From Thermodesulfovibrio yellowstonii DSM 11347 (GTDB lineage Bacteria > Nitrospirota > Thermodesulfovibrionia > Thermodesulfovibrionales > Thermodesulfovibrionaceae): a stretch of DNA of 64,000 nt. The notes under the pieces are model-generated. The model searched no databases. It saw nothing but the letters and a program-made list of their open reading frames with translations, and had not been told where the DNA came from. Both the position numbers and the translations under genes were made by a program. The stretch's first letter is position 1; the number at the start of each line of letters is the position of its first letter. Positions 6,197-64,000 of the stretch are shown in pieces. The stretch spans positions 1,478,001 through 1,542,000 of the forward strand of contig NC_011296.1 in NCBI RefSeq assembly GCF_000020985.1. The letters run 5' to 3'.

Positions 6197-7105
6197 TTAT
6201 TTGGTTATATCTTCTATGTTTTTTTCTTCAGTCTCTACGAATTCATCTGAATGGGTATAAATCTCTATTCCAAGCTTTTCTGCCACAGGTTTAGCACGAG
6301 GATCTACCATAGGTGAAATTACTATAACTCTATCAACTTTTCTTTGATGTTTCCTCTCGTAAAACTCCTTTTCCCGCCATAAAGTATACATATCAGATTT
6401 GCTCATAGAAGATTTGATCTCGCATGCAATTACCATTCCGTTTCTTATTATTAAATCAAGCTCTATTTGATCAGGATGACCGAAAACTTCACCCGTATGA
6501 TCATAATCAATGTATCTCATAACTTCTATACGGAAAGACTCCTCAATGATTGCTTTAAGTCCGTTGCGGAAGGACTCTTCTGAGTAAAGTCCCCATCTTG
6601 CACCAAGTGCCCCAATTGTATAGAGATGTCTTCTATCAATTTTTTCCAGTCTCAGTAAAATTTGATTAATTGTTTTTTGGTTCTCTTCCCATTTTCTATT
6701 CCATTCTGCTTGTGTCTCTTCCCATCTCTTCTGACTCTCTTCCCATTTTCTATTCCACTCTGCTTGTGTCTCTTCCCATCTCTTCTGACTCTCTTCCCAT
6801 TTTCTATTCCACTCTGCTTGTGTCTCTTCCCATCTCTTCTGACTCTCTTCCCATTTTCTATTCCACTCTGCTTGTGTCTCTTCCCATCTCTTGCTCCACT
6901 CTTCCCATTTTTTCTCAAATCTTTCTTCAACCTGCAAGATTTGCTGATAAATCTGTTCTATTCTGTCTTCTGTTTTTTTCTTGGGAGGATAATACAGTTT
7001 TGTTACTTGCAGAATATACCTGCGGAAAGAGGGATCACTCTTTAAAATTTTAGGCAACTCATTCTTAATTATTTTTTTGACTTCTTCAATGTTCATCTCA
7101 ACCAT
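6197..7105 (-). CDS. DUF3782-like protein, coiled-coil repeats plus PD-(D/E)XK-like nuclease fold
   Basis: 302 residues. The N-terminus (about 1-55) precedes a highly charged, Trp-rich coil (about 58-145) containing four tandem copies of an 18-residue unit WEETQAEWNRKWEESQKR. The C-terminal half has a YIDYDHTGEVFGHPDQIELDLIIRNGMVIACEIKSS segment. Its D-x(n)-E-x-K pattern (ELDL...ACEIK) is the core of PD-(D/E)XK nucleases. Proteins of this type are frequent in thermophiles and cyanobacteria and have no known role. The 18-residue units are encoded by a nearly perfect 54-bp DNA repeat, so copy number may vary between strains. Long ORFs on the other strand and frame here are shadows of this repeat. 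Confidence 0.75.
   Translation of the reverse strand: MVEMNIEEVKKIIKNELPKILKSDPSFRRYILQVTKLYYPPKKKTEDRIEQIYQQILQVEERFEKKWEEWSKRWEETQAEWNRKWEESQKRWEETQAEWNRKWEESQKRWEETQAEWNRKWEESQKRWEETQAEWNRKWEENQKTINQILLRLEKIDRRHLYTIGALGARWGLYSEESFRNGLKAIIEESFRIEVMRYIDYDHTGEVFGHPDQIELDLIIRNGMVIACEIKSSMSKSDMYTLWREKEFYERKHQRKVDRVIVISPMVDPRAKPVAEKLGIEIYTHSDEFVETEEKNIEDITK
6684..6899 (-). repeat. tandem array, 4 x 54 bp, in frame in the DUF3782-like gene
   Basis: Copies begin at 6684, 6738, 6792 and 6846 and are almost identical; the first differs at one base (CCATTCTGC for CCACTCTGC) and the last diverges at its final bases. A partial fifth unit follows from 6900. Because 54 is a multiple of 3, gain or loss of units keeps the frame. 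Confidence 0.95.
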
Positions 7106-18939: not shown

Positions 18940-19160
18940 GAGGATGTTCAATTACTAATGATCATTCCGAGCACCCTCAATGGGTGCGAGGAATCTGACC
19001 CTTAGGGTCACCCTGAGCGAAGCGAAGGGTCTCCTCCTTAAATCGGAAAGAGGAGATTCCTCGTCGCTAACGCTCCTCGGAATGACAGATGGAGGTAAAT
19101 GAAAAATATTAAATTCTAATTCCTTGATTTATAAGAAACTGGGAAATTTTGAACAGTCTC
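18940..19160 (+). mobile_element. MITE-like repeat element, copy 1 (221 bp)
   Basis: The ends are GAGGATGTTCAA (18940-18951) and TTGAACAGTCTC (19149-19160), which are inverted repeats with few mismatches. The core (about 18961-19100) is GC-richer than the surroundings and is a series of nested hairpins, such as GACCC/GGGTC and ATTCC...GGAAT modules. It is almost identical to the inverse complement of the copy at 45411-45634, differing by one inserted base in the core, whereas the outer parts have diverged. There is no coding potential. It fills the 5' leader between the efflux promoter and the DUF169 gene. No clear target duplication is seen here. Confidence 0.75.
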
Positions 19161-27994: not shown

Positions 27995-29119
27995 TTACTT
28001 AGCAAAGGTTTTTCTGAAACGGTAAACGGAAAAACCAAATAGAATAACACCAAGAAATACAATTCCCACTATATCATGCCAAACATATTTTATTCCGTTT
28101 CCCTTAAAAAGCACACTGTAGCCGAAATCAATAAAATATCTCATTGGAGAAACAAGGCTTAAATACTGCATAATAGGCTGCATTGACTCTGGAGGTGTCC
28201 ATGCACCTGAGAGCATAAGCATTGGTGTAAGAATTACAAGCATAAGCATCATTGACTGAGCAAGATTTCTCGCAACAGTTGCAATGGCTATACCTAAGGA
28301 TGACATGGTGAAAACATAAAAAAGCATCACAGGATAAAACAAAAATAAACTACCTCTTATTGGAACTTTAAAAATTCCTTTAATCACGAAAAAAATGCTT
28401 AAAAAAGACAGAACCCCCACTGCAAAGATTGTAGGAGTTATCTTTGCAAAAAATATCTCCCATGTCCTGGCAGGTGTTACAAGAAGCTGCTCAATGGTTC
28501 CGTATTCCTTTTCTCTTACAAGGGCTGCTGCAGTTACAAGAAGGGAAACCATAGTGGTTACATTAAAGAATTCAAGAAGGCTCATAAACCATGCCGTTAA
28601 AATATTTGGGTTAAAATGAACCCTTGTTCTTTCATCTATAAATGGAATTTCATTGAAGAATCTATTAGTTATTCCCATTTTTCTTTCAAAAACCTCTATG
28701 GCATAGTTATATGTTATTGATGATACATAACCAACAGCCATAGTTGCTGACATAGACATAGTTCCATCAATAATTACCTGAATTTTTGCTCCTCCACTGT
28801 CAATCTTTCTTTTAAAATCAGGTGGAATTACAACAGCCATGGAGGCTTTCCCGCTGTCAAGCCAATCAATGATTTCTCTGTCAGTCTGGACAAAGGCAAG
28901 GATTTTAAAATAGGGTTTTTGAAACCTGCTAATCAGTTCTCTACTTTCAGGACTATGGCTCATGTCATAAACAATTGTTGGAAAATTTCTTACTTCCATT
29001 GATACTCCATGCCCCGCAGTATATATCATGCCTGTGAATCCCCATAGAAGAATAAAAAGTAAAACCTTATCACGCATAAGATGGGTCATCTCTTTTTTTA
29101 TAAGTGAAAGAAGTCTCAT
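27995..29119 (-). CDS. ABC-2 type export permease (YbhR-like)
   Basis: 374 residues. The ABC-2 membrane layout is one N-terminal TM (about 20-40), a large periplasmic domain (about 45-165) and five C-terminal TMs. The motif MVSLLVTAAALVREKEYGTIEQLLVTPARTWEIFFAKITP is the conserved ABC-2 signature before TM3. With its paralogue (start shared by ATGA overlap at 29116-29119) it would form the membrane channel for the dual ATPase. In E. coli YbhGFSR, the nearest known layout, substrates are drugs or cations; the substrate here is not known. Confidence 0.9.
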   Translation of the reverse strand: MRLLSLIKKEMTHLMRDKVLLFILLWGFTGMIYTAGHGVSMEVRNFPTIVYDMSHSPESRELISRFQKPYFKILAFVQTDREIIDWLDSGKASMAVVIPPDFKRKIDSGGAKIQVIIDGTMSMSATMAVGYVSSITYNYAIEVFERKMGITNRFFNEIPFIDERTRVHFNPNILTAWFMSLLEFFNVTTMVSLLVTAAALVREKEYGTIEQLLVTPARTWEIFFAKITPTIFAVGVLSFLSIFFVIKGIFKVPIRGSLFLFYPVMLFYVFTMSSLGIAIATVARNLAQSMMLMLVILTPMLMLSGAWTPPESMQPIMQYLSLVSPMRYFIDFGYSVLFKGNGIKYVWHDIVGIVFLGVILFGFSVYRFRKTFAK

Positions 29120-30249
29120 CCTATTCTTTTCCTGAAAAATAGAATTGTTAAAGAATATACAAAAACAGCATAGAGAAAAAGTGACAGAAGATTAGGCAGA
29201 TAGTAACTGAACCCAAGTCCTTTAAGATATACCCCTCTTACAACTCCGATAAAGTATGTTGCAGTAATAAATTTGCTCATTATTTGACCTGTAAGTGGCA
29301 TGCTTGTAACTGGTGAGAAAAATCCTGAATACATAAATGAAGGTGTAATTGTGCCCAAGAATGCAATAAGCATTGCTGAAATCTGAGTCTTTGCTATCAT
29401 TGATATAAATATCCCGATTCCGATTGTGCATGAAAGATAAAGCAGAGTAGCAAGGGTAAGTAAGAAAAAGTTTCCAATAAATTTTGCTTTAAAAAAAACA
29501 ACTGTGATAATGAAAAGTATGATATATGTGAGAAAAGATACAGTTATGTAAGGAATTGCTTTACCAAAGACAACCTCCCATTTTTTTACAGGTGAACAGT
29601 AAAGATTAAAAATACTGCCTGACTCCTTTTCCCTAACAACAACCAATGAGGCAATCAAGACAGGGTAATACATAAGAGTTATGACAAGCATTCCAGGAAG
29701 TATAAAGTTTTTACTTTCAAGTGCTGGATTATACCAGGCTCTCATTTCAGTTTCTATTGGAAAACTTATTGACATTCCCTTCATTGAAGTATAATTTTCA
29801 AGAATTTTTTGATTGAACTGATTGTTAATTGCAGATACATATCCTTTTATTACTTCTGCACGAGATGGGAATGAGCCATCAATGAGAAACTGCACCTGAG
29901 TTTTCTGTCCGCTATAAAGTTTCCTTGAAAAATCAGGAGGTATCACTACAACAACTCTGCATTTACCTGATTGAATTAACTCATAAGCTTCATCATAACT
30001 ATCTATAAGAGCATAAAACCTGAAATACTCCGAGTTTGTAAATGAGTATCTATAATCCCTGCTTAAAGCTGAACGATCAAAATCAAGAAATGTCACAGGA
30101 ATGTTCTTTACATCAAGAATCAATCCATATCCCATCAGTAACATGATTACTACAGGCACAAAAAGAGCCAAACTAAGATAAAGAGGGTCACGAAGTAATT
30201 CCCTGAACTCTTTCTTAAGTATGGCAAGCAGACGTTTGGGCATTTTCAT
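29116..30249 (-). CDS. ABC-2 type export permease (YbhS-like)
   Basis: 377 residues, a paralogue of the downstream permease. It has an N-terminal TM (LSLALFVPVVIMLLMGYGLI), an extracytoplasmic domain with IPVTFLDFDRSALSRDY and CRVVVVIPPDFSRKL, then five TMs containing VLIASLVVVREKESGSIFNLYCSPVKKWEVVFGKAIPY. The ATG is at 30249, with a second in-frame ATG two codons on; no Shine-Dalgarno site is obvious. It is separated from the ATPase by an inverted mntA-hepT cassette, so it probably needs its own promoter in 30250-30394. Confidence 0.9.
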   Translation of the reverse strand: MKMPKRLLAILKKEFRELLRDPLYLSLALFVPVVIMLLMGYGLILDVKNIPVTFLDFDRSALSRDYRYSFTNSEYFRFYALIDSYDEAYELIQSGKCRVVVVIPPDFSRKLYSGQKTQVQFLIDGSFPSRAEVIKGYVSAINNQFNQKILENYTSMKGMSISFPIETEMRAWYNPALESKNFILPGMLVITLMYYPVLIASLVVVREKESGSIFNLYCSPVKKWEVVFGKAIPYITVSFLTYIILFIITVVFFKAKFIGNFFLLTLATLLYLSCTIGIGIFISMIAKTQISAMLIAFLGTITPSFMYSGFFSPVTSMPLTGQIMSKFITATYFIGVVRGVYLKGLGFSYYLPNLLSLFLYAVFVYSLTILFFRKRIG

Positions 30250-30790: not shown

Positions 30791-31205
30791 TAAGGAGTTC
30801 ATAAAAACAAAACTTTTTCTGATTAAATCATATTACGAGGAGCTTGAACAGATACTTTCCTTCTCTGATTCAGAAATAAAAGAGGATTTTATAAAATTGA
30901 GAGCTATAGAAAGAGTAATTCAGCTCATTGTAGATGAAATTATTGATATTAATAATCATATTGTGAGATATCACCCATTAAAATTACCCAATGACTTTCA
31001 AAGTAGTTTCTTGATTCTTGCCGAAAATAATATTCTTCCAGAGTCTTTCGCAAAAAAAATCGCACCAGTTGTTGGATTGAGAAACAGGCTTGTTCACAGA
31101 TACGAAAAAATTGATCTGGATCTCCTCTTGAATTTAATCAGAAAAAATAAAGACGACTTTATTGAATATGTCAAACATATTCTGGATTTTATTCAAAAAT
31201 CCTAA
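30759..31205 (+). CDS. hepT: HepT-like HEPN-domain toxin RNase
   Basis: 148 residues from ATG 30759, or 140 from GTG 30783 (VIDKEFIKTKL), which is closer to the usual HepT start. A four-helix HEPN domain with the R-x4-H-x-Y catalytic motif RNRLVHRY near residue 112; the tyrosine is the AMPylation site in known pairs. HEPN toxins cleave RNA. Conserved IERVIQLIVDEIIDINNHIV matches the family. Its stop overlaps that of the dual ATPase by 4 bases (convergent). Confidence 0.88.
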   Translation: MKDLKSLPVIDKEFIKTKLFLIKSYYEELEQILSFSDSEIKEDFIKLRAIERVIQLIVDEIIDINNHIVRYHPLKLPNDFQSSFLILAENNILPESFAKKIAPVVGLRNRLVHRYEKIDLDLLLNLIRKNKDDFIEYVKHILDFIQKS

Positions 31206-32956
31206 TCTTTTTCACTCTCCTTTATATAATCAACAAAGGCTTCTTGAAGGGGAACATGACTAAGGGTGGTTTCAAACTGTTTAATCCCTGCATTTTTTAA
31301 TGTCTCATTGATCTTTTGTTGGGTAACCTCAGGTTCAAAGCTTCTTATGAATATTTTACTACCATAGATTGAGATTTCTTTAAAATTTTTCGTGAGTAAA
31401 TCATACACTTCCATAAATCTTTCACTCTTTATCTGAATAAGGCTTCCAGAGATTTTTTCAGAGTTTTTCTTTATTTCTTCAGGGCTTCCTTCTGCTATTA
31501 CTCTTCCCCGATGCATAAGACAGAGGCTATCACAGTTTTCAGCTTCATCCATGTAGTGAGTTGAAACAATCACTGTTACATTTTTGTCTCTTGAAAGCTT
31601 AAAAATAATCTTCCAGAAACTTCTCCTTGCAACTGGGTCAACTCCGCTTGTTGGTTCATCAAGAAATAATACAGGTGGTTCATGTAAAAGTGCACAGGCA
31701 AGAGTAACTCTCTGCCTTATTCCAAGTGGTAGGTCTTTGGTTAGTCTTTCCTCAAATCCTTTCAGTCCAAGCATTTCAATTACTCCGCTGAAGTCATTAT
31801 TTTTTACACTGTAAAGTCCTGCATAAAGCCTCATGTTTTCCTTTACTGTAAGGTCTCTGTAAAGAGAGAATCTCTGAGACATATAGCCGATAATACCCCA
31901 GACTTTGCTTCTGTCCTTTTTTACATCATAGCCAGCAATTTTAATTTCTCCCTCTGTTGGCTCAAGTAGTCCACACATCATCTTTATTAGAGTTGTTTTG
32001 CCTGCACCATTTGGTCCAAGAAGTCCAAGTATCTCTCCCTGCCCTACTTCTAAGTTAACTGAGTCAACCGCCTTAAACTTTCCAAATGTTTTTGTTACTG
32101 AATGGCATGAAATGATAATTTTTCCACCCTCTATGGAGATTCCTCGCAGACCCTTCGCCTGCGGCTCAGGGCTACGCTTCGCTTCGGCTCGGAATGATGA
32201 AGGATAACTAATATTCAGTTCAGCCTTTTGCTTTGCTTCTGCTACTTTCTCTATGAAAACCTTTTCCAGATTACCCAGTTCCTCAGGTCTGTCCTGAAGA
32301 AGTATCCTTCCTTCATGCATTAAAGCAATCCTGTGGCATCTCTCTGCCTCATCCATGTAGGATGTGGAAAGCAAAACAGTCACACCTCTTTGTCTTACAA
32401 GTCCGTGAATAATATTCCAGAAATCCTGCCTTGAAAGGGGGTCAACTCCTGTTGTTGGTTCATCAAGAAGAATTATGTCTGGTAGATGTAGCAGAGTACA
32501 TACAAGGGCAAGCTTTTGTCTCATTCCACCAGAAAGTGCCTTTGCCTGTCTTTGAAGAAATAGAGTTAGCCTTGTTATTTCAAGTAATGTTTTTTTGTTT
32601 TTTTCAAATACCTCATCAGGAATTAGTCTAAGTCCTCTGAAAAACTCAATATTTTCCTCAATTGAAAGGGAGTCATATAGATTAAGTCCCAATCCCTGAG
32701 GCATGTAGCCGATAAGAGCTTTAACTTTCTCAGGATTTTTGGTAACATCTATGTCATTGACAAAGGCTTTGCCACCATCTGCCTTAAGCACCCCCGCTAA
32801 AATCTGTATTATTGAGGTTTTTCCAGCACCATCTGGACCAATAAGACCAAAAACTTCGCCTTTGTTAACAGAAAAAGAAACATTATCAACTGCTTTGATT
32901 TTTTTATAGCTTTTACAGAGATTTTCAACTTTTATGACAAAATTTTTCTCAATCAT
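31202..32956 (-). CDS. dual ATP-binding ABC protein (YbhF-like), repeat-derived linker
   Basis: 584 residues with two ABC ATPase domains. Domain 1 (about 7-230): Walker A GPDGAGKTS (40-48), LSGGM (142-146), Walker B IILLDEP (161-167). Domain 2 (about 280-510): GPNGAGKTT (314-322), degenerate signature LPLGIRQRV, VLFLDEP. Fused ATPases of this type energise YbhS/YbhR-like permeases, and both are nearby. The linker (about 251-274, YPSSFRAEAKRSPEPQAKG) is encoded by a palindromic repeat at 32137-32202. The gene is downstream of the HlyD-like protein in the same direction. The ATG at 32956 lacks a strong ribosome binding site. Confidence 0.93.
   Translation of the reverse strand: MIEKNFVIKVENLCKSYKKIKAVDNVSFSVNKGEVFGLIGPDGAGKTSIIQILAGVLKADGGKAFVNDIDVTKNPEKVKALIGYMPQGLGLNLYDSLSIEENIEFFRGLRLIPDEVFEKNKKTLLEITRLTLFLQRQAKALSGGMRQKLALVCTLLHLPDIILLDEPTTGVDPLSRQDFWNIIHGLVRQRGVTVLLSTSYMDEAERCHRIALMHEGRILLQDRPEELGNLEKVFIEKVAEAKQKAELNISYPSSFRAEAKRSPEPQAKGLRGISIEGGKIIISCHSVTKTFGKFKAVDSVNLEVGQGEILGLLGPNGAGKTTLIKMMCGLLEPTEGEIKIAGYDVKKDRSKVWGIIGYMSQRFSLYRDLTVKENMRLYAGLYSVKNNDFSGVIEMLGLKGFEERLTKDLPLGIRQRVTLACALLHEPPVLFLDEPTSGVDPVARRSFWKIIFKLSRDKNVTVIVSTHYMDEAENCDSLCLMHRGRVIAEGSPEEIKKNSEKISGSLIQIKSERFMEVYDLLTKNFKEISIYGSKIFIRSFEPEVTQQKINETLKNAGIKQFETTLSHVPLQEAFVDYIKESEKD
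32137..32202 (-). repeat. palindromic repeat encoding the linker of the dual ABC ATPase
   Basis: GATTCCTCGCAGACCC...GGCTCGGAATGATGA on the plus strand: the same ATTCCTCG/CTCGGAAT frame as the MITE core, with internal GCTTCGCTTC-like repeats. It is in frame and translated on the minus strand as an Arg/Ser/Pro/Ala-rich stretch of about 22 residues between the two ATPase domains. Confidence 0.8.
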
Positions 32957-33018
32957 GTGCCACTTTTTTATTATTCTTATGGCATGAAAAACTTAAAGGA
33001 TGCTCTTTTTTTGTTAGA

Positions 33019-33051
33019 GATTCCTCGGGACATTTAGTCCCTCGGAATGAC
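33019..33051. repeat. palindromic repeat between the hlyD-like and ATPase genes
   Basis: GATTCCTCGGGAC, loop ATTTA, GTCCCTCGGAATGAC: the simplest copy of the repeat, a single hairpin with the ATTCC...GGAAT outer arms and a perfect GGGAC/GTCCC inner stem. It would lie in the spacer of the hlyD-ATPase transcript. Confidence 0.8.
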
Positions 33052-33085
33052 AAAAAAGGATGTGGACATTTGCTTTTGATAAATA

Positions 33086-34036
33086 TTATCGTGGCTTTAT
33101 CCAAGGTGCGTCATCTTTCCACTTTATTACAACATCAGCAGGCATTCCTGGCTTAAGCAATCCTTCAGGATTTTCAACTGAAACTTCAACTCCAAAAACA
33201 AGTTTCACTCGCTCTTCTTTTGTTTCAACATTTTTCGGAGTAAACTCTGCTTGCTCATAAATTTTTGTGATTTTGCCATTGAAATATTTGTCAGGATAGG
33301 CATCTATATACACTCTTGCTGGTAGCCCTATCTTTAGCTTTCCTATTTCTGGTTCAGGAATATAAACCTTGACATAAAGCTTGTTTAGGTCAACCATTAC
33401 ATAAAGCACAGTCCCTGGATTTACAACCTCGCCAACCTCTACAGGTCTACTTAAAATCACTCCTCCAGCTGGTGAGTAAATCTTTGTCTCATTCAAATCA
33501 GCCTGAGCTTCCTTTATTCTTTGTTCAGCTGCTCTGTAGCTTGACTCTGCTTGAGTTATAGCTTTAACTGCTGCCTCAACTTCAGCCTGTGCTGATTCAT
33601 ACTGCATTTTAACTCTATCAAAATCGCTTTTTGAAACAAGTTCCTCTTTAAGAAGGCTACTGTAACGGTCATAATCCTTCTTTGCCTTCTCATAAGAAGC
33701 CTGAGCCTTTATAAGATTTGCTCGAGCCTGAGCAATTGAAGAATAATAAGCCTGAGCCGTCTCAACCGCATTTCTATATCTTGCTGTAAGTTGTTCGGAG
33801 TCAATCTCGCAAAGAAGTTCTTCCTGTCTGGCAGTATCTCCTTCATCTTTGTAAAGTTTAGTAATTCTACCCTGAATTTTTGGGGATATATTTGTTTCTC
33901 TGCCTTCTATTCGTCCACTTAGGATAATAAGTCCTTCTGGAAATTTGGTTGTTTTTGTTATGACTATGTAAACTAAAGAAAAAATAAAAATCAAAATAAC
34001 AAAAACTATTAAGAGTTTTTTGAGATTAATTTTCAC
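33086..34036 (-). CDS. HlyD/YbhG-type membrane fusion protein
   Basis: 316 residues. It has one N-terminal TM (LLIVFVILIFIFSLVYIVI, about 8-26), then a lipoyl half (GRIEGRETNISPKIQGRITKLYKDEGD), a coiled-coil hairpin (about 75-180) and the second lipoyl half plus beta-barrel (KIYSPAGGVILSRPVEVGEVV). It bridges the ABC exporter to the outer envelope, as YbhG does. The start is GTG at 34036, 7 bases after a TATAAT, so it is leaderless. First gene of the exporter cluster. Confidence 0.92.
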   Translation of the reverse strand: MKINLKKLLIVFVILIFIFSLVYIVITKTTKFPEGLIILSGRIEGRETNISPKIQGRITKLYKDEGDTARQEELLCEIDSEQLTARYRNAVETAQAYYSSIAQARANLIKAQASYEKAKKDYDRYSSLLKEELVSKSDFDRVKMQYESAQAEVEAAVKAITQAESSYRAAEQRIKEAQADLNETKIYSPAGGVILSRPVEVGEVVNPGTVLYVMVDLNKLYVKVYIPEPEIGKLKIGLPARVYIDAYPDKYFNGKITKIYEQAEFTPKNVETKEERVKLVFGVEVSVENPEGLLKPGMPADVVIKWKDDAPWIKPR

Positions 34037-45410: not shown

Positions 45411-45634
45411 GAGACTGTTCAAAAACTTGTAACCTATTGAAATTCAATAAATTACAAGCCCTAAAATTTTTCAATTACCTCCATCTGTCATTCCGAGGAG
45501 CGTTAGCGACGAGGAATCTCCTCTTTCCGATTTAAGGAGGAGACCCTTCGCTTACGCTCAGGGTGACCCTAAGGGTCAGATTCCTCGCACCCATTGAGGG
45601 TGCTCGGAATGACCTTCAGTAATTGAACAGCCTC
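45411..45634 (-). mobile_element. MITE-like repeat element, copy 2 (224 bp)
   Basis: The ends are GAGACTGTTCAA (45411-45422) and TTGAACAGCCTC (45623-45634), inverted repeats differing at one position. TATTTTT stands on both sides (45404-45410 and 45635-45641), a possible 7-bp target duplication, though AT-rich. The core (about 45482-45616) is the inverse complement of the 18.96-19.10-kb core with one extra base, while the arm near 45425-45480 has diverged and holds its own CTTGTAA/TTACAAG inverted repeat. It lies between cstA and its regulator genes. Confidence 0.8.
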
Positions 45635-63623: not shown

Positions 63624-64000
63624 CTATTTTTTAGTTACAACAAGAACAGGACAAGGAGCATTTCTTATAACTCTTTGTGTTGTACTTCCAACAAAAAATC
63701 TTTCTACTCCACTTCTTGGAAGTGTTCCAATAATAATCAAATCAATACTATTTTCTTTAGCAAACTTTATAATTTCCTCATAAGGAATTCCTCTTAAAAC
63801 AGCTGTTTCAACATTTTTGAAATCTTCACGAATATCAATACCAAAAGAATCAAGATTTCTTTTGGCATGAGATTCTAAGTCCTTATAAAGTTCGGTTATT
63901 GACGGATGAGGAATATGAAGATTTGATGCTTTTTCAATATCATAGATAACATGAAGAAGATATAATTTTGCATTAAACATTTTCGCAAAATCTACAGCAT
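63624..64000 (-). CDS. universal stress protein, 5' end beyond the window
   Basis: The UspA domain ends SIDLIIIGTLPRSGVERFFVGSTTQRVIRNAPCPVLVV, with the G-x2-G-x9-GS ATP-site pattern partly kept. Upstream of the first visible ATG the frame continues to the right edge (AVDFAK before MFNAKLYLLHV, the typical UspA context), so the true start lies outside. About 125 residues are visible; the N-terminal ILVPTDFS-type strand is missing from the window. Confidence 0.9.
   Translation of the reverse strand, partial: AVDFAKMFNAKLYLLHVIYDIEKASNLHIPHPSITELYKDLESHAKRNLDSFGIDIREDFKNVETAVLRGIPYEEIIKFAKENSIDLIIIGTLPRSGVERFFVGSTTQRVIRNAPCPVLVVTKK

Follow-up and report, generated by a model that had tools for sequence, protein, structure and literature searches.

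A REP-like palindromic repeat read in frame within the interdomain linker of a dual ABC ATPase of Thermodesulfovibrio yellowstonii

The window analysed here is a stretch of 64,000 nucleotides corresponding to positions 1478001-1542000 of the single-contig T. yellowstonii genome (2,003,803 bp). Its minus strand carries, at 31202..32956, the gene of a 584-residue dual (tandem) ABC-transporter ATPase, identified from the open reading frame (ORF) list, two PF00005 (ABC_tran) stretches and orthologues. Two further minus-strand ORFs flank this gene, an ABC-2 family membrane protein or permease (29116..30249, PF12698) and a HlyD-type membrane-fusion protein (33086..34036, PF16576), both of which, judging from their positions, are probable partners of the ATPase. 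The predicted model of the ATPase (AlphaFold, 15 sequences) has a mean pLDDT of 84.8, and residues 243-277 fall below 50; as the linker is of low confidence throughout, the model does not single out the segment described below. An Rfam search of the window returned tRNA only. Elsewhere in the window, positions 6621-6944 hold five head-to-tail units of 54 nt, spaced 54 nt apart, a multiple of three, with copies of the 108-nt reference being 61-96% identical.

The linker between the two ATPase domains contains a long palindromic element with a 60-nt core (32137..32202, minus strand), in which the tag strand, as defined below, is the coding strand. An earlier note on this DNA had described the segment as a palindromic repeat translated in frame between the ATPase domains, and the genome bears this out: the element supplies codons 252-274, and a search of the genome with positions 32130-32210 found 26 places at E ≤ 10, and 14 of them pass E ≤ 1.1e-5. 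Because the gene is duplicated, two of these 14 long places fall in the same ABC gene (the focal copy at 1510130 and its counterpart in the duplicated region at 1561333), and 12 lie elsewhere, two of them being partial and short (44 and 36 nt). Copies outside the ABC gene are up to 95% identical to the query, several intergenic ones being 92-95% identical, and the best match beyond the duplicated gene has E = 1.3e-20. The short form of the repeat, searched for with a strict pattern (ATTCCTCG, 2-31 bases, CGGAATGA), occurs at 50 places in the genome, while the reversed-pattern control gave none. Of the short elements in the window, one is intergenic just upstream of the ABC gene (33020..33050, genome 1511020-1511050, plus, the strand given being that of ATTCCTCG); two are the left and right members of an array bounding a 51-kb tandem duplication (18962..18994, genome 1496962-1496994, minus; 19056..19085, genome 1497056-1497085, plus); and two form a second inverted pair, also intergenic (45488..45517, genome 1523488-1523517, minus; 45580..45612, genome 1523580-1523612, plus). 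The family is mostly intergenic, and genic copies are a minority.

The anatomy of the short element was derived from 45 distinct copies, the 50 places less five in the duplicated region. Their tag-strand consensus is TG-TC-ATTCC-GA...GA-GGAAT-CTCC, in which the search pattern sets TCATTCCG and CGAGGAAT and leaves the flanks free, as well as the A in the first GA (44 of 45). Ahead of the pattern-fixed TC there is a G in 91% and a T in 76% of the copies, which defines a TGTC tag; the focal copy reads CATC at this position. The outer stem consists of 5 bp (ATTCC/GGAAT, its initial AT being pattern-fixed) and is followed by GA opposite GA. The tail is C in 96%, T in 89%, C in 78% and C in 58% of the copies. 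The inner arms pair at a mean of 2.72 of 4 positions compared to 1.83 (sd 0.11) with shuffled partners (39 elements), an excess that is not a strict probability since the elements are related. Neighbours less than 150 bp apart, read by eye, comprise eight distinct pairs with tags outside, three in the same orientation and none with tags inside. A second palindrome type, TGTCACCCTGAGCG...AAGCGAAGGGTCTCC, with a different outer stem (ACCCT/AGGGT) and similar flanks, adjoins many elements genome-wide (L009, L011 and L018, for example), and the focal long element appears to hold a copy of it; both observations were made by eye.

The word "palindromic" suits the focal copy in part. It is a composite in which one hairpin is nested inside the paired outer arms ATTCC/GGAAT, but it folds no better than shuffled sequences do (z = +1.06 for 81 nt of DNA; z = −0.74 and +1.25 for the two strands of 66 nt of RNA). 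The sibling at 33016-33054, taken on the strand opposite to that of 33020..33050, folds significantly (z = −3.90, none of 200 shuffles as good). Two other short intergenic siblings in the window (z = −0.12 and −0.65) and the sibling of the focal element in L015 show no significant fold.

The dual ABC ATPase is found in T. yellowstonii and, among the other 15 genomes of the genus, in 8. The earlier note had anticipated homologues without the segment, as opposed to a similar linker in all of them, and such homologues are the rule: it is absent from all eight congeners that have the gene and from 16 of 16 aligned homologues, the others being six from the same order and two more distant ones (L112 and L113, the two that were aligned out of 80 loci). 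At the nucleotide level, the linker region measures 213 nt in T. yellowstonii and 153-186 nt in six congeners; the linkers of the remaining two, G004 and G011, were judged from protein alignments. Compared to the 156 nt of G003, the closest orthologue, the linker is 57 nt longer. Thus, of the roughly 22 extra residues proposed earlier, codons 252-274 do derive from the repeat, but the net gain is 19 residues. The linker is variable in every species, and neither of the closest orthologues, G003 and G008, has a trace of an earlier element in it. It is too diverged for a target duplication to be readable, and the exact empty site is not kept even in G003.

Different members of the family occupy the same linker in two other species, G012 having TGTCATTCCGAG...GAGGAATCTCC and G014 having TGTCGTTCCGAGCGAAGCGAGGAATCTC there. 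These are read as CHSES and CRSERSEES, respectively, in a frame other than the one that gives SFRAEAK in T. yellowstonii. The G012 element (968526) has a near copy 44 kb away, at 924765-924811. As the G012 and G014 elements share a frame, they may trace to one event. A dual ABC protein of a same-order genome (L050/L040, G026:C1:480825-482732) has a far longer stretch between its ATPases, which aligns with extra sequence also present in G053 and L113.

The copy in the ABC gene differs in length from its relatives. We aligned 11 of the 14 long places, leaving out the duplicate and the two partial matches, and none of the ten other copies has two bases that are present in the genic one. Eight of these ten could be measured; their cores are 58 nt long, and all eight hit a stop in the ABC linker frame. 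Among the 16 genomes of the genus, a 95-base query with the long form matches only T. yellowstonii, G004 and G003. All four aligned G004 copies (of 12 matches) lack both extra bases, while, of the two aligned G003 copies (of four matches), the one located within HypF has both and the other has one. The two long copies residing in conserved genes, those of the T. yellowstonii ABC gene and G003 HypF, thus both show the longer form, whose length is a multiple of three. We considered the two bases as compensating changes acquired after insertion and dropped this idea, since the G003 HypF copy has the same two; the 60-nt form is more simply a pre-existing variant whose length is divisible by three.

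Elements of this family are found in other conserved genes. The 64 places (50 short, 14 long) include nine in conserved genes, or eight distinct elements when the duplicated ABC gene is counted once. These eight lie in six Pfam-assigned genes, HypF (three elements), CobN, LeuS, AcsB, NuoC and the ABC ATPase, and leave the ORFs open. NuoC is the weakest case as its element is close to the N-terminus and the start may be wrongly assigned there, and its insert site was recovered for T. yellowstonii and G004 only. Six other spanning ORFs (421253, 452740, 452864, 1051978, 1154667 and 1408672) were set aside as spurious, a judgement based on their repeat-like or antisense make-up. Across the genus, the elements in frame are used in both orientations and in several frames, giving CHSE-, SFRA-, RRFL- and GMTEE-type peptides.

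The HypF gene with its three in-frame palindromic elements lies at 799123-801615 of the genome (L075, L192), and the first two of them fall in a loop for which the solved HypF structure 3vth has about six residues. Neither 3vth nor 1h3n, the solved chains that best match HypF and LeuRS, respectively, has the extra residues. Tolerance at a domain boundary, where the earlier note had expected an insertion to do least harm, fits the variable, low-confidence ABC linker but does not extend to HypF, whose elements sit in loops inside Pfam domains. The second HypF element, beside a shared first element, has a long form in G003 but a short one in T. yellowstonii and G004. In CobN, the affected region is 144 nt long in T. 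yellowstonii compared to 63 nt in G003, G004, G009 and G012, a clean gain of 81 nt, and G006 has an intermediate segment. The AcsB element takes the place of loop sequence with no net length gain (96 nt compared to 90-141 nt elsewhere), so that exchange or long erosion fits as well as insertion.

The same loops carry elements in congeners. Elements or half-sites occupy the HypF loop of G004, G003 and G007, with single half-sites in G002 and G010; the LeuS loop has them in G003, G014 and, in degenerate form, G012; and the AcsB loop of G003 has an apparently decaying element. With T. yellowstonii left out, 14 half-sites occur in 4,974 nt of affected loops and two in the remaining 95,748 nt of the same 46 ORFs, counts that are partly dependent through shared ancestry and that refer to loops chosen from T. 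yellowstonii. Both half-sites outside the loops are at one CobN place (G012 and G009). These densities omit LeuS of T. yellowstonii, G011, G013 and G002, the HypF fragment G008b, and NuoC.

The family is present in 9 of the 16 Thermodesulfovibrio genomes, T. yellowstonii included, with 1 to 119 copies each; four of the seven genomes without it are only 56-72% complete. In the richest genome, G012 (119 copies), we inspected 40 regions containing 91 places. Eleven are in ORFs of at least 150 residues, and we accept two as lying in real genes, namely the ABC linker and a gene that we take, by recognition, to encode a heptosyltransferase-like protein. A further ORF has two places at its N-terminus, which we regard as doubtful; the remaining ones look spurious. 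With 2 of 91 places in real genes, genic copies are a minority in this genome as well. The heptosyltransferase-like gene (L331, G012:C1:1855461-1857884) has its element in frame.

A search for the Y1 transposase (PF01797) found none in the T. yellowstonii genome, while 5 of 14 control genomes were positive. Within the genus, 2 of 16 genomes have this domain, G001 and G011, which are not element-rich (0 and 8 strict copies). Mobilisation by a RAYT transposase is thus unsupported for T. yellowstonii.

From position 19020 to its end at 64000, the window lies in a direct tandem duplication that is perfect and has a unit length of 51,203 bp. The duplication continues beyond the window (region 1542001-1599500) and places the second copy of the ABC gene at 1560405-1562159. 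Genome positions 1497020-1548301 recur at an offset of 51,203 over 51,282 bases with no mismatch. Palindromic repeats make up all three boundary arrays. The array in the middle is a hybrid between its two neighbours, the product expected of unequal crossing-over; taking a one-base difference as the left limit places the crossover within 1548223-1548301. The perfect recurrence and the hybrid array show that recombination between arrays does happen. The second HypF element, with its short and long versions, suggests that exchange could swap elements inside genes too. The genome paper makes no mention of the 51-kb duplication (PMC4319510).

Among known repeats, the family is closest to the CGTC-type REPs. 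The parts of PMC3733652 (Di Nocera et al. 2013) used here define GTAG and CGTC REPs, report intragenic copies in several species, name flexible linkers and loops as harmless sites, and record CGTC repeats in five phyla, of which Nitrospirota is not one. The Thermodesulfovibrio family resembles the CGTC type, as described there, in (i) a terminal TGTC, a stated variant of CGTC, (ii) an AT first in the stem, which here is pattern-fixed, (iii) neighbouring copies that are mostly inverted, head-to-head, with tags outside, and (iv) the lack of a dedicated transposase, here by the PF01797 search, and the presence of some genic copies. It differs in its outer stem, which has 5 bp rather than 8-9 and leads into a GA/GA mismatch and then a variable inner part, in its CTCC tail instead of a mostly CCA one, and in the 58-60-nt composite form of the focal copy. 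As the tag, dimer orientation and absence of a transposase agree but the stem length and tail do not, we call the family CGTC-like and not a member. GTAG-type REPs with a RAYT are likewise dispersed palindromes that form arrays and have occasional intragenic copies, but they carry a GTAG tag where this family has TGTC, and the T. yellowstonii genome lacks their Y1 transposase. The Neisseria repeat dRS3, which belongs to the CGTC-type REPs and is given as ATTCCC(N8)GGGAAT in the part of PMC3898611 consulted, is close to the ATTCC...GGAAT of this family.

The comparison with Rickettsia made in the earlier note is apt in kind, as RPE-4 and RPE-6 of that genus are filed as CGTC-type REPs, the most similar group, in the same parts of PMC3733652. 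RPE-1-type elements, which occur in frame inside many unrelated genes, are likewise palindromic, in frame in conserved genes and absent in relatives; compared by description, as given in the sections of PMC10969869 used here, they are about 150 bp long with a conserved encoded peptide, unlike the 23-60 nt and several frames seen in Thermodesulfovibrio. REP counts in T. yellowstonii are tabulated in PMC12306157, and the consulted parts of that paper describe no genic copies. Our search of the literature on Thermodesulfovibrio, Nitrospirota and such inserts generally, which most subscription papers lay outside, found no Thermodesulfovibrio report. Intragenic REPs are already described, and the present family adds a further case, with no report for the genus found.

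Considering these findings, a REP-like dispersed palindrome resembling the CGTC type very probably entered the linker-coding region of the ABC gene and was kept since neither its length nor its frame closes the ORF. The main competing account, in which ectopic recombination or gene conversion between repeat copies swapped a member already in the loop and no mobile unit was inserted, is unlikely, although the recombining arrays with their 51,203 offset and hybrid middle array, the alternating second element of HypF and the AcsB replacement are all in its favour. It needs a prior element, of which the G003 and G008 linkers have no trace, and the CobN gain over four congeners is hard to accommodate. 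We infer that the ABC element arrived by insertion rather than by such exchange. Derivation of the segment from an ancestral linker that other species lost would suit the variation in linker length within the genus (153-213 nt in seven species) but calls for independent loss in 16 of 16 aligned homologues and leaves the 92-95% identity to several intergenic repeats aside; we give it next to no weight. A chance resemblance, or a repeat misassembled into the gene, is just as improbable: the genome is a 9x Sanger assembly of repeat-bearing DNA (PMC4319510), but the matches are as strong as E = 1.3e-20 outside the duplicated gene, the ORF stays open and family members sit at the same linker in other genomes.

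Selection for the encoded peptide or for an mRNA hairpin, as opposed to mere tolerance, is improbable to a high degree. The element has kept its repeat sequence, and both long copies in conserved genes are of the longer form, but different frames and both orientations are used, congeners manage without the insert, and the focal copy folds no better than shuffles. A selected peptide was rejected as the main reading on account of the differing frames and orientations. Repeated entry in both orientations and more than one frame points instead to elements that arrived and were then selected for keeping the frame open in a tolerant loop, not to a conserved peptide function. According to the insertion model that we favour, the element would be DNA first, a repeat spread round the genome mostly between genes. 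Elements would arrive as DNA, most genic arrivals would be lost, and the survivors would be frame-keeping elements in flexible loops, carried as passive sequence. In the ABC gene, the element would be translated passively into some 20 disordered residues. The ATPase with the insert is presumably made and working, and the insert is presumably close to neutral.

More tentatively, and with the balance slightly against so broad a statement, small REP-like palindromes may keep supplying conserved enzymes throughout the genus with new loop and linker sequence, by a route without a RAYT transposase. Recurrent landing pads, namely the HypF loop after FYYP, the LeuS segment before the anticodon-binding domain and the ABC linker, would then be places where elements are gained, swapped and eroded across species. 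Rickettsia, an intracellular lineage, provides the best-known protein-coding palindromes; here, a free-living thermophile has them in HypF, LeuRS, acetyl-CoA synthase, CobN and an ABC ATPase. Its many congeners are natural controls for dating arrivals, watching in-frame decay and testing neutrality, and a REP-like family with no visible RAYT offers a case for studying the mode of spread of such repeats.
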